Positions 13,152 through 17,056 of a stretch of DNA of 33,645 nucleotides are shown here, one piece after another (position 1 is the stretch's first letter; each line of letters begins with the position of its first letter). The translations under genes were made by a program, and so were the position numbers. The stretch covers positions 1-33,645 of the forward strand of contig JASEGV010000032.1 of the NCBI GenBank assembly GCA_030017895.1. The letters are read 5' to 3'. The DNA is from Bacteroidota bacterium. GTDB taxonomy: Bacteria > Bacteroidota > Ignavibacteria > UBA10030 > BY39. The notes under the pieces were generated by a model. The model ran no database searches. It had not been told where the DNA came from and saw only the letters and a list, made by a program, of their open reading frames with translations.

Positions 13152-13177
13152 TCTATAAATATTCAAAACTCAATCCG

Positions 13178-13203
13178 CCCGCCGAAGCTTTAGCGTAGGC
13201 GGG
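13178..13203. repeat. Intergenic palindrome (REP-like)
   Basis: CCCGCC (13178-13183) and GGCGGG (13198-13203) flank GAAGCTTTAGCGTA. It lies between the M1 peptidase and truA and is much more GC-rich than its surroundings. A low-complexity AT-rich run (CATAAAT and AAATCCGAAATCC units) follows and extends to the truA start. The form is that of REP-type dispersed palindromes. On the plus strand it could act as a transcript-end hairpin, but no T-run follows. Confidence 0.6.
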
Positions 13204-13237
13204 AATCCCAAATCATAAATCATAAATCCGAAATCCC

Positions 13238-14038
13238 TTGTCTCGTTTTAAACTTTACATAGAATACGATGGCACGCGTTACAGCGGCTGGCAAATTCAG
13301 AAAAATGCACAGACTGTTCAGGGGGCGATTCTTGATGCGGCGTATAAAGTTTTTCAAATACAAGATTTAGAAGTGTACGGTTCAGGCAGAACTGATGCCG
13401 GCGTGCATGCCCTTCAACAAATTGCCCACCTCGAAGTTCGGACTATGCTTGCTCCTGAAATTATCAGGGTGAGACTGAACGATGAATTGCCCGGAGATAT
13501 CAATATAATCGAAGTTGAAAAAGCCGCAAAGAATTTCCACGCCCGCCACGATGCAGTAGCCCGCAGTTACTTGTATCAAATTACAAGGAGAAGAACTGCA
13601 TTCGGTAAGCGTTACGTTTGGTGGCTCAAAGAAAAATTTGACTTTCAGAAAATGCAGGAAGCATCTAAACTGTTTGTGGGTATGAAAAATTTGCAGTCAT
13701 TTACTGCCGATGACCCTGAAGAAAAATCCACAAAAGTATTGATTGAAGAAATTGAAATGAAAGAAGCCGGCGACTTGATATTGATAAGGATTTACGGCTC
13801 TCATTTTTTGTGGAAACTTGTTCGCCAGATTGTGGGAGTTATTGTAGAAGTGGGGAGCGGAAAACTTGCGCTTGATAAAGTTCAGCATTACATCAAAATA
13901 AAATCCAATGAGCCGGCAAAATTCTCCGCACCGCCGTCAGGACTGTTTTTAGAACGAGTTTATTATCAGGGCGATCAGAAACTCCAGAAGTTAGAACCGG
14001 TTTTAAGTGTCGTTACATCTCCCCATAAAAATTTATGA
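13238..14038 (+). CDS. truA: tRNA pseudouridine synthase A
   Basis: Converts uridine to pseudouridine at tRNA positions 38-40. The catalytic aspartate is Asp53 in GSGRTDAGVHAL, and the opening strand FKLYIEYDGTRYSGWQIQ is typical. The C-terminal part contains FLWKLVRQIVGVIVEVGSGK, also characteristic. Length 266 aa is normal. No ATG precedes the first conserved strand, so the start is taken as the TTG at 13238, with no clear ribosome-binding site because the upstream 35 bp are repeat-derived AT-rich sequence. That sequence may have replaced the original translation start. The last codon overlaps the M48 protease ATG by 4 bp. Confidence 0.95.
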   Translation: MSRFKLYIEYDGTRYSGWQIQKNAQTVQGAILDAAYKVFQIQDLEVYGSGRTDAGVHALQQIAHLEVRTMLAPEIIRVRLNDELPGDINIIEVEKAAKNFHARHDAVARSYLYQITRRRTAFGKRYVWWLKEKFDFQKMQEASKLFVGMKNLQSFTADDPEEKSTKVLIEEIEMKEAGDLILIRIYGSHFLWKLVRQIVGVIVEVGSGKLALDKVQHYIKIKSNEPAKFSAPPSGLFLERVYYQGDQKLQKLEPVLSVVTSPHKNL

Positions 14039-15282
14039 ATCCATACTTAGTAATAATTCTTTTTGCTCTTCTAATAGAATATATTCTGGAACTAATCGCC
14101 GACCTTCTTAACCTCAAAACACTCTCTGCCGTTCTGCCTAATGAGTTCAATGGCATCTATGATGAAGAGACATACAAAAAATCACAAACTTATACATACA
14201 CGCGGACTGTATTTGGTATCGTCGAATCAAGTTTTAGTCTCGTTATAACCTTTGTATTCTGGTTCCTCGGTGGTTTTAATTACCTCGATATTATAGTTCG
14301 TGATTTGCAGCTTGGTTTTGTTTTCACAGGAATAGCGTATATCGGTATTCTCATCATCATCAGGTCAATTCTTTCAATGCCGTTTAGTATTTACTCGACT
14401 TTTGTTATTGAAGAAAAATTTGGATTTAACAAGACCACCGTAAAAACTTTTATCACAGACATTCTCAAAGGTTTACTGCTTGGCGCCATTCTCGGTGGAT
14501 CGCTACTGTTAGGCATTCTTGTCTTGTTCGAATATGCGGGTGTCTTTGCGTGGTTGTATTGTTGGACTGCGGCATCGGTTTTTGTGCTTTTTATTCAATT
14601 TGTAGCACCGACTTGGATAATGCCGCTGTTTAACAAATTCACTCCGCTCCAGGATGGAGAGTTGAAAGAGTCGATAGTTTCTTATGCTAAGTCGGTTAAG
14701 TTCTCATTGCGCGATGTTTACGTTATGGACGGCTCGAAACGGTCGAGTAAATCGAATGCATTTTTTACAGGATTCGGTAAAAATAAACGTATTGCTCTTT
14801 TCGATACATTAATTCAGAAACATACAATCCCGGAGTTGGTTTCAGTGCTTGCTCATGAAATTGGTCATTACAAAAAGAAGCATATAATTCAGGGAATGAT
14901 TATCAGCATATTGCATATGGGATTGATGTTCTTCCTGCTGTCGATATTCGTAACTCAGCCTGGGTTATTCGATGCATTTTTTATGGAGAACATTTCTGTT
15001 TATGCAGGACTGTTGTTCTTCGGTATGCTTTTTACGCCGCTTGAGTTTTTGGTTTCCTTAGCGTTAAATGCTTTATCGAGAAAGCATGAATACGAAGCAG
15101 ATAGGTTTGCAGTCGAAACAATGAAATCTTCAGAACCATTTGTTGATGCGTTGAAAAAATTATCAAAGGACAATCTTTCGCACTTAACTCCGCATCCGTT
15201 TTATGTTAAGATGAATTATTCGCACCCGCCTGTGGTTGAGAGGATAATTGCTATAAAATCCGAAATCCAAATTCATATCTGA
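14035..15282 (+). CDS. M48 family membrane metalloprotease (Ste24/CAAX-protease-like)
   Basis: Integral membrane zinc protease related to Ste24 CAAX proteases. Several hydrophobic segments precede the catalytic motif HEIGHYKKKH (His274, Glu275, His278), and the third zinc ligand is Glu354 in HEYEADRFA. The N-terminal NEFNGIYDEETYKKSQTYT segment and the C-terminal LTPHPFYVKMNYSHPPVVER motif are hallmarks of the Ste24 branch rather than HtpX. Length is 415 aa. It is translationally coupled to truA. The final codons after ERI (IAIKSEIQIHI) are encoded by AT-rich AAATCCGAAATCC-type sequence, and a second copy of the gene's 3' end with a different tail lies at 15612-15698, so the present C-terminus may be a replacement. 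Prenylated substrates are not expected in bacteria; a role in membrane protein quality control is inferred. Confidence 0.92.
   Translation: MNPYLVIILFALLIEYILELIADLLNLKTLSAVLPNEFNGIYDEETYKKSQTYTYTRTVFGIVESSFSLVITFVFWFLGGFNYLDIIVRDLQLGFVFTGIAYIGILIIIRSILSMPFSIYSTFVIEEKFGFNKTTVKTFITDILKGLLLGAILGGSLLLGILVLFEYAGVFAWLYCWTAASVFVLFIQFVAPTWIMPLFNKFTPLQDGELKESIVSYAKSVKFSLRDVYVMDGSKRSSKSNAFFTGFGKNKRIALFDTLIQKHTIPELVSVLAHEIGHYKKKHIIQGMIISILHMGLMFFLLSIFVTQPGLFDAFFMENISVYAGLLFFGMLFTPLEFLVSLALNALSRKHEYEADRFAVETMKSSEPFVDALKKLSKDNLSHLTPHPFYVKMNYSHPPVVERIIAIKSEIQIHI
15184..15247. repeat. Direct repeat, copy 1 (in the 3' end of the M48 protease gene)
   Basis: This 64-bp segment encodes LTPHPFYVKMNYSHPPVVERI of the M48 protease. 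It matches 15612-15675 at 60 of 64 positions, offset by 428 bp in the same orientation. Three of the four differences are third-codon-position silent changes. Confidence 0.9.
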
Positions 15283-15315
15283 TTCTATAATCTCCGATTC
15301 TAATTTTGTAATCCA

Positions 15316-15564
15316 TCAGGTTTTATTTTTGCGATCACTGATATAATCATCAAGAAACATGTAATCACCGGTTTTATAAGCGACACGTGCTTCATGAATC
15401 TCAGATTTTACTTTCGGATCTGCAAGTAGTGTATCTTCTTCCGCTTGTTCTAATTGTTCATGTAATAGTTTCCATAACCGCAGTTTTTCGGTTAAAGATA
15501 AATTATTTATTGTATTCAATAGGGATTCAAACGGGACAGAAATATTGATTGGGTCAATTGCCAT
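15316..15564 (-). CDS. Small acidic hypothetical protein, antitoxin-like
   Basis: An 82-residue protein on the strand opposite to its neighbours. The ATG at 15564 is preceded by AGAAAGGA at about 8 nt, so this start is preferred over an upstream in-frame extension to 15615. The N-terminus MAIDPINISVPFESLLNTI is followed by a predicted helix (LSLTEKLRLWKLLHEQLEQAEED) and a charged C-terminal half. Its size and charge resemble small antitoxin or addiction-module components, but no toxin gene lies next to it and I cannot name a family. It sits exactly between the two copies of the M48 gene 3' end, suggesting that it arrived with the rearrangement that produced them. Confidence 0.6.
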   Translation of the reverse strand: MAIDPINISVPFESLLNTINNLSLTEKLRLWKLLHEQLEQAEEDTLLADPKVKSEIHEARVAYKTGDYMFLDDYISDRKNKT

Positions 15565-15611
15565 ATTATAAATCCTTTCTATGTGTATTATATATAAATT
15601 ACGAAATAATA

Positions 15612-15698
15612 TCAACTCCTCATCCGTTTTATGTTAAGATGAATTACTCGCACCCGCCTGTTGTTGAGAGGATAAAAATTATACAGCGAATTCAATAA
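15612..15698 (+). pseudogene. Displaced second copy of the M48 protease 3' end
   Basis: Reads S-TPHPFYVKMNYSHPPVVERI and then KIIQRIQ and a TAA stop at 15696-15698, in the same frame organisation as the end of the M48 gene. The first 64 bases match 15184-15247 at 60 positions. The remaining part of the protease gene is absent upstream. ERIKIIQRIQ resembles the usual end of Ste24-type proteins (ERI followed by a short charged helix) better than the tail of the intact gene, so this may be the original 3' end, displaced by an insertion of about 360 bp, or a remnant of a second allele. Confidence 0.75.
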
Positions 15699-15837
15699 TA
15701 GGGTCAGCGCGGTCAATCTTTAATCCCATCTGTACCAAGTATGGATTCTTTTTTGTCAGGAGTACAAGAAATGTAATGATCCCGAACGCAAGCGTAAGAC
15801 CCGCTATAATAAACGGGAGTAAATATTTGTTGTCCAT
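15679..15837 (-). CDS. Small single-pass membrane protein, hypothetical
   Basis: A 52-residue reading frame, ATG at 15837 to TAA at 15679. MDNKYLLPFIIAGLTLAFGI and the following ITFLVLL form one clear transmembrane helix of about 22 residues, then TKK as a positive stop and a short polar tail ending DRADPIIEFAV. AAGAG lies very close before the ATG, a weak ribosome-binding site. The 3' 20 bp overlap the displaced M48 gene end in antisense. No family is recognised. The long hydrophobic block and positive-inside charge pattern argue for a real protein, but conservation is untested. Confidence 0.5.
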   Translation of the reverse strand: MDNKYLLPFIIAGLTLAFGIITFLVLLTKKNPYLVQMGLKIDRADPIIEFAV

Positions 15838-15953
15838 CTCTTGTTACGTCTAATTATTATTGCTTTATTTCGACTGAATAATAACAAAAATTTTTATAAA
15901 GTCAAACTTTATCAGCTTTTGCTTTCTTCTCAAAATCTGCTTAAAATAAATCT

Positions 15954-16937
15954 ATGAAATTAGGCAATCTAAATATCGCTCAACCAATCGCACTCGCACC
16001 TATGGAAGGTATTACAGATACCTCTTTCCGAATAATCTGTAAACGCCTCGGCGCCAATATCGTTTATACCGAGTTTGTTAATGCCGAAGGATTAGTCCGT
16101 TTATCTGAAAAGACAAAACATAAAATGTATTTCACGGAAGAAGAGCGGCCAATCGGTATTCAAATCTACGGCGGTCTCGAAACCTCGATGGAAGGTGCGG
16201 CTAAGATGGCTGAAGAAATGCAGCCAGATTTCATAGACATTAACGCCGGTTGTTGGGTTAGAAACGTGGTTGGTCAGGGTGCCGGTGCGGGACTGCTTAA
16301 AGATATTTCAAAAATGGAAAGTGTAGTTTCAACAGTCGTGAAATCAGTTAGTTTACCCGTGACAGTCAAAACACGATTGGGTTGGGACGATACCAATATT
16401 AAAATAATCGAAGTTGCAAAAATGGTGGAGAGTGTGGGGGCAGCAGCTTTGACAGTCCATTGCCGAACTCGTTCACAAGCCCACAAAGGCAAAGTTGATT
16501 ATAGCTGGATACCGAAAATCAAGCAGGCAGTTAAGATCCCAATTATAGTCAATGGCGGAATCACTACACCTGAAATTGCTAAGTATGTTTTCGATTCAAC
16601 TGGCTGCGATGGAATTATGATTGGGCAAGGTGCGATTCAAAATCCGTGGATATTTAAAGAAACAAAATATTACTTAAAAACTGGTGAACATTTGACGCCA
16701 GTTACAATCGAAAAGCGAATTGAGACATTAATTGAACATCTAAAACTTTCGGTGCAATTCAAAGGCGAGCGAACCGGTGTAATTGAATTCCGGAAATATT
16801 ATACAGGATATTTGAGAAACGCTCCCGATGTTGCAAAACTCCGAAACGAGTTAATGAAATTTACTGAAGTAGAGCCGATAGTAGAAAAATTGAAAAGCTA
16901 TTCAGCTGTTACGCACGGAAATCAGTTTCAAGCTTGA
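15954..16937 (+). CDS. dusB: tRNA-dihydrouridine synthase (DusB-like)
   Basis: FMN-dependent reductase that forms dihydrouridine in tRNA. The TIM barrel opens with IAQPIALAPMEGITDTSFR, and the phosphate/FMN-binding segment near the end includes VNGGITTPEIAKYVFDSTGCDGIMIGQGA. The catalytic cysteine lies in DINAGCWVRNVVGQGAGAGLL; the residue after Cys is Trp where most Dus proteins have Pro, but the cysteine itself is kept. HCRTRSQAHKG matches the substrate-contact motif. Length 327 aa is normal. It is preceded by 116 bp without a gene after the small minus-strand membrane protein and is followed by 119 bp before polX, so it may be transcribed alone. Confidence 0.95.
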   Translation: MKLGNLNIAQPIALAPMEGITDTSFRIICKRLGANIVYTEFVNAEGLVRLSEKTKHKMYFTEEERPIGIQIYGGLETSMEGAAKMAEEMQPDFIDINAGCWVRNVVGQGAGAGLLKDISKMESVVSTVVKSVSLPVTVKTRLGWDDTNIKIIEVAKMVESVGAAALTVHCRTRSQAHKGKVDYSWIPKIKQAVKIPIIVNGGITTPEIAKYVFDSTGCDGIMIGQGAIQNPWIFKETKYYLKTGEHLTPVTIEKRIETLIEHLKLSVQFKGERTGVIEFRKYYTGYLRNAPDVAKLRNELMKFTEVEPIVEKLKSYSAVTHGNQFQA

Positions 16938-17056
16938 ATCTTAATGAAGTAATTATTAAATTTGATTAAACCTTTCACACAATTTCTCCCTAAAAACTTG
17001 TCGTTTTCACGCCGACTATTTTTTAAAAATATGAAAACTGGCAGTAGGGTCGGATT

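Follow-up and report, generated by a model that had tools for sequence, protein, structure and literature searches.

It has long been asked, without an answer so far, how chromosomal toxin-antitoxin (TA) systems devoid of mobility genes pass from one genome to another. The question comes up again at a locus where the 3' end of an M48 family protease gene is present twice, around a small gene that looks like a lone antitoxin: how did the second end get there, and did it come together with the gene that it helps to enclose? The stretch of DNA analysed (33,645 nucleotides, henceforth the window) makes up one of the 176 contigs of a draft genome of 3.2 Mb. It was compared with relatives from the same order, a set in which the genus has just one further genome, G001. 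The features that matter are the following.

14035 to 15282, plus strand: M48 family CAAX-type protease gene, intact, 415 amino acids, from the list of open reading frames (Pfam PF16491, E 1.5e-55; PF01435, E 2.3e-39)
15186 to 15247, plus strand: proximal gene-end copy, inside the intact M48 gene (repeat search; three-way alignment with G001)
15248 to 15613, no strand: putative inserted cassette, 366 bp, 31% GC, without terminal inverted repeats, absent from G001
15316 to 15564, minus strand: putative solitary RelB/ParD-like antitoxin gene, 82 amino acids, no adjoining toxin gene; homologues beside ParE/RelE toxins in G032 (E 1e-20) and G006 (E 3e-14)
15573 to 15578, minus strand: predicted ribosome-binding site AAAGGA of the antitoxin-like gene, 8 nt before its ATG (sequence)
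15587 to 15615, minus strand: promoter-like TTGATA-17-TATAAT, 11 of 12 consensus matches
15614 to 15675, plus strand: displaced gene-end copy (repeat search; recount of differences)
15676 to 15698, plus strand: displaced tail KIIQRIQ and stop, without gene body (open reading frame 15549-15698; resembles the tail in G001)

The doubled end of the M48 gene

The host gene is complete, with both Pfam domains and an HExxH motif that appears as HEIGH in the translation. A repeat search of the window showed that 62 nucleotides of its end (15186-15247) recur as a direct repeat at 15614-15675, with a spacing of 428 and 95% identity. Both copies translate as TPHPFYVKMNYSHPPVVERI, and they differ at three of the 62 positions, all of them third positions and silent in the M48 frame. 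A duplicated gene end around a small gene, with mostly silent differences, had been noticed in a sequence-only reading and is borne out; that reading gave 64 bp with 60 identities, and the shared block is here corrected to 62 bp with three differences, the fourth lying beyond it, where the tails diverge. No M48 body was found upstream of the displaced copy, which starts at the junction 15613/15614 and is the sole other close M48 end in the genome. As none of the positions sampled in 109 control loci is bracketed by such a repeat pair, chance can be ruled out for the 62-bp repeat.

Beyond the block, the last codons of the intact gene (15248-15282) make up a replaced tail, IAIKSEIQIHI. AT-rich repeats of the type AAATCCCAAATC are found in intergenic DNA and also directly behind the intact M48 gene (window 13165-13240 and 15258-15310). 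The displaced tail KIIQRIQ had been taken for the more family-like of the two, and this did not survive comparison: the tail motif in 15 relatives is approximately ERI[RK]A[IL][RK], which intact ERIIAIK fits better than displaced ERIKIIQ. Over this short stretch, the displaced tail is more like that of same-genus G001 (ERIKEIK) than the intact tail is. That the intact tail fits the motif of the relatives would be expected if it had arrived with the cassette from another lineage, thin evidence that comes down to three residues.

An empty site in the sister genome

An empty site in a relative had been set beforehand as a test of insertion, and G001 has one: the gene order is the same, the M48 protein is 85% identical, and there is a single M48 end with no insert. 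In the three-way alignment, it is the left copy that runs on from G001 on the upstream side, and downstream of the 62-bp block the tail of the right copy is closer to G001 than that of the left copy, over a short stretch only. The proximal copy differs from G001 at five of 62 positions and the displaced copy at six of 62; the three differences between the copies cannot tell which of them would be foreign. Beyond the displaced tail, the window and G001 differ from each other as far as position 15916 and could not be aligned over this stretch, so that more must have happened there. A 52-codon open reading frame with a hydrophobic stretch lies behind the displaced copy (window 15679-15837, minus strand); no homologue was seen in any locus compared.

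The same geometry is seen wherever a sister sequence could be aligned. The block is single in the sister at six loci, the window among them, the others being L123 (nuoN with DUF433), L127, L110, L108 (valS with TA genes) and L130 (ilvE), and at all six the left copy continues the sister upstream while the right copy continues it downstream. The proposal that a cassette had inserted into the gene end and regenerated the coding sequence is thus supported both by the empty site of G001 and by the absence of an M48 paralogue.

A lone antitoxin-like gene in the insert

The minus-strand gene between the copies had been proposed together with its good ribosome-binding site, and homology now shows it to be real. 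The encoded protein has two homologues among 60 relatives, 42% and 39% identical, and a ParE/RelE toxin gene follows directly after each of them (L033, PF05016, E 7e-10; L034, PF05016, E 9e-9). It is because of this position that we assign the gene of the window to the RelB/ParD-like antitoxins: on the basis of homology to genes of TA pairs, it would be antitoxin-like by descent. None of the profile libraries puts a name to the protein of the window: Pfam gave no match, VapB15 (E 0.011) is far below its cut-off, and the L033 homologue scored 19.7 bits against PF09720, below the cut-off of 23.3 bits. There is no toxin gene beside the antitoxin-like gene; the closest toxin relative that the genome has lies on another contig and shares 42% identity with the toxin of G032. 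A solitary antitoxin of this kind may be either a decaying remnant or a protection against a related toxin. The -35 hexamer of the promoter-like site spans the junction between the cassette and the displaced copy.

The insert was also to be looked for at other gene ends. It was not found there: a search for the 366-bp sequence elsewhere in the genome or in the relatives returned only distant protein homologues, and what these gene ends carry instead are other TA cassettes.

Recurrence around toxin-antitoxin loci

The oddity of the window is met again in G032 (contig 105, L035), at another gene and beside an antitoxin homologue, and for this reason TA loci were surveyed in the relatives. In L035 (1-3509) there are three ends of a gene that, named by eye, resembles a 1-pyrroline-5-carboxylate dehydrogenase (P5CDH) gene. 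Ends one and two enclose a sucC-like gene start that is truncated, ends two and three enclose a DUF433/DUF5615 pair, and a RelBE-like pair follows the last end; this looks like repeated insertion at one spot. The survey took in loci from two TA families, drawn from 60 relatives, and the neighbourhood of TA genes in four genomes. Of 43 TA anchors, 13 lie between direct repeats of 40-200 bp, compared with 16 of 1551 positions picked at random from the same genomes (Fisher p 3e-14); in a second comparison this was so for 12 of 52 TA anchors and for none of 2160 random positions in 109 M48-anchored loci. Phylum-wide the count is 14 of 60 TA loci, with dispersed repeats as the brackets in some cases. 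These figures describe loci ranked first by the searches, in draft genomes and for two TA families, and insertions shared between genomes may have led to pseudo-replication. No duplication is detectable at about 70% of TA loci, partly because displaced copies decay, as a shared cassette behind aspS illustrates.

The repeats are often host gene ends, 62 bp long at the window and about 50-200 bp at other loci, and the host gene remains intact (nuoN, valS, ilvE and thyX, among others; these names, like aspS and rhomboid, come from reading translations, without profile searches). Duplication is not confined to 3' ends: in L110 and L127 it concerns gene starts. Elsewhere the cargo consists mostly of TA genes, with one methyltransferase-like cassette in L104. 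The nuo operon seems to be a recurrent target: a methyltransferase-like gene and a DUF433 piece occupy the nuoM/nuoN junction in G000 (L104 6168-8298), DUF433 occupies the same junction in G001 (contig 50, about 700-2170), where the nuoN end has been a target as well (L123 7661-8361), and a RelBE pair lies between nuoH and nuoI in G006 (L034 1480-1985). The youngest-looking case is in G001, where 142-bp repeats that are 99% identical (L129 7400-7541 and 8490-8631) surround a ParDE-like pair; no sister sequence was found for it.

Some candidates had to be discarded. In L065 (1267-2337) and L135 (2750-4685), what might have been shared cassette ends or target duplications belongs instead to a dispersed repeat family. 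The repeat measures about 50-100 bp (ATCGTCTGAACCGCGATTCTCTTGATT...) and, flanking TA genes as it does in a number of genomes, can pass for a target duplication. The DUF433 TA cassette behind aspS, found in three genomes of two families (L134 18507-19244, L099 16430-17220, L116 5640-6430), was rejected as three insertions: it looks like one old insertion common to the three genomes, and its right copy is decaying in two of them.

Divergence of the two copies

Three differences are too weak, at the window alone, to uphold the claim that the copies diverged as coding sequence and that one of them came from a related allele. It gains its force from 12 gene-end duplications taken together, all in different host genes. 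Among their 115 changed codons, 74 are synonymous and 41 non-synonymous, and no stop was gained in a displaced copy. We compared this with 4000 simulated runs of a duplication in situ, in which the displaced copy drifts while the gene copy is constrained. The synonymous fraction is 0.64 against 0.30-0.33 in the simulation, none of the 4000 runs reaches the observed value, and about 1% of them remain without a stop. Divergence of the coding type, together with its absence from the simulated runs, suggests that, as a rule, one copy of each pair evolved in a working gene of another lineage.

At L123 the pattern is legible in the sequence itself. The intact nuoN end has four changed bases within 7 nt beside the cassette, with I-L-G-I-K-stop kept, and in the displaced copy the differences fall at the end that faces the cassette. 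Over the six loci with a sister, the order of the differences points to foreign sequence beside the cassette on both sides, weakly (p 0.02) and in a manner that alignment edges can also produce. Both the coding-type divergence and the mosaic of L123 are compatible with transfer by recombination in flanking genes; no donor genome with a matching gene end was found in this analysis. ComEC, which is needed for DNA uptake, is present in the seven of seven genomes tested.

Competing explanations

The most serious rival is an insertion in place with a long target duplication, in which a break or a template switch during replication would have duplicated the gene end and captured a TA fragment, the copies drifting afterwards. 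The three-way alignments fit a plain target duplication, terminal repeats and shared ends are missing as they would be after an illegitimate event, the copies of L130 share nearly all their differences from the sister, and the first duplication, in whichever lineage it occurred, must have needed such a step. A copy deprived of its gene body should, however, gather random changes, and the mostly synonymous, stop-free divergence of the 12 loci does not look like that; end-joining would also be hard to invoke, as no Ku was found in the seven genomes tested. Duplication in place followed by drift is rejected by the simulation as a general rule and could still hold for single loci; for the window, we hold it to be rather unlikely.

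Less can be said for the others. A site-specific mobile cassette, integron-like or comparable to tRNA islands and dependent on a recombinase that works in trans at gene ends, has the merit that an incoming element of this sort restores its target gene, as do islands that enter tRNA or guaA genes. It is made very improbable by targets as different as M48, nuoN, valS, ilvE, aspS and P5CDH, by the lack of any recombinase among the cassette genes read, and by a search of 12 cassettes in which no common ends were seen and no terminal inverted repeats beyond chance (two of the 12 reached p ~0.03, unremarkable among twelve tests); an Rfam search of 14000-17000 gave no match either. That the displaced copy might be what is left of an ancient M48 paralogue, or of a gene independent of it, with the antitoxin gene merely in between, has the resemblance of the two ends in its favour and is scarcely credible when only three differences are found in 62 bp, no M48 homology extends upstream of 15614, the sister genome has one end, and the pattern recurs with unrelated host genes. 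Nor does the genome contain a second full-length gene closely homologous to M48. Draft status, with 176 contigs, might evoke an assembly artefact, to which we give hardly any weight: the copies differ at three positions and are separated by 366 bp within a contig of 33.6 kb, and several independent genomes show this structure too.

A possible course of events

We consider it fairly probable that a TA cassette, accompanied by an M48 end borne by its donor, was inserted with a long target duplication and joined to the chromosome by homologous recombination. A cassette since reduced to its antitoxin gene would have entered at the M48 3' end with a second copy of that end, the left copy closing the intact gene and the right one being the leftover end. 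The incoming DNA probably brought its own M48 end from a related lineage. Were the joining to have taken place by recombination inside the conserved last 20 codons, the M48 gene would never have been broken, and only its variable C-terminal tail would have changed. As to the vehicle, we infer recombination, either within the gene end, the donor being a relative with the cassette already at that place, or through integration of a piece made of gene end and cassette. The toxin gene would have been lost, or would never have arrived with the cassette, and what is left today may be decaying or may stand guard against a related toxin.

The best reading of the survey is that TA cassettes spread between relatives by homologous recombination in gene ends. 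A broader proposal, towards which we remain somewhat reserved, is that they are recombinase-free mobile units, in which a short functional host-gene end would serve both as integration homology and as repair of the host gene, so that they could establish themselves behind essential genes and pass from one species to another. In one bacterial group, the event has left its mark on a large share of the TA loci in the form of a doubled host-gene end, with copies seemingly of different ancestry, and these doubled ends make the route of TA transfer testable. This would account for the harmless position of such cassettes behind important genes (valS, nuoN, ilvE), and would make of the doubled gene end a simple signature for gene cassettes that move without a recombinase.

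Relation to known systems

In the minimal mobile elements of Neisseria, variable cassettes without mobility genes lie between conserved genes and are moved by recombination in these flanking genes. The likeness would reside in cassettes that lack mobility genes and are putatively moved by recombination; here, the flanking gene end is doubled around the cassette. Genomic islands that enter the 3' ends of genes replace the target end by a copy of their own. Unlike them, the elements described here have no integrase and no fixed site and are smaller than 1 kb, the insert of the window having 366 bp and one gene, with targets that differ from locus to locus. Unlike integron cassettes, they have no shared cassette-end site (attC). 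The chromosomal TA islet ccdO157 (PMC2654758) is similar in that TA genes alone make up a small, strain-variable chromosomal islet, and no gene-end duplication is described in that article. Solitary (orphan) antitoxins and anti-addiction modules have been considered as a possible protection against related toxins (PMC2654758); the gene of the window resembles them in having no toxin of its own adjoining, and its subfamily matches no Pfam model.

The closest parallel is offered by restriction-modification (RM) systems, selfish units of two genes which, on insertion, duplicate a long stretch of their target, variable in length and measuring roughly 100 bp (Nobusato et al., 2000; Furuta et al., 2010; both covered in the review of Mruk and Kobayashi, PMC3874152; see also PMC3031569). 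Common to both are a small system, the lack of a transposase, a long and variable target duplication (62 bp here) and a single-copy empty site in a close relative (G001, and six loci in all). The reviews tie long target duplication to RM systems and present TA systems as widely transferred, often on other elements (PMC3874152, PMC3031569); in the literature covered, which comprised the reviews, only RM work was found, and the primary papers of 2000 and 2010 may mention a TA case. Two things set the present loci apart from RM insertion, namely a cargo of TA genes, reduced at the window to an antitoxin alone, and copies whose divergence is that of coding sequence, pointing towards a gene end borne by the donor. 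While long target duplication is known for RM systems, its association with TA cargo and with copies of differing ancestry, which we did not find described, appears to be the new feature of this family of insertions.
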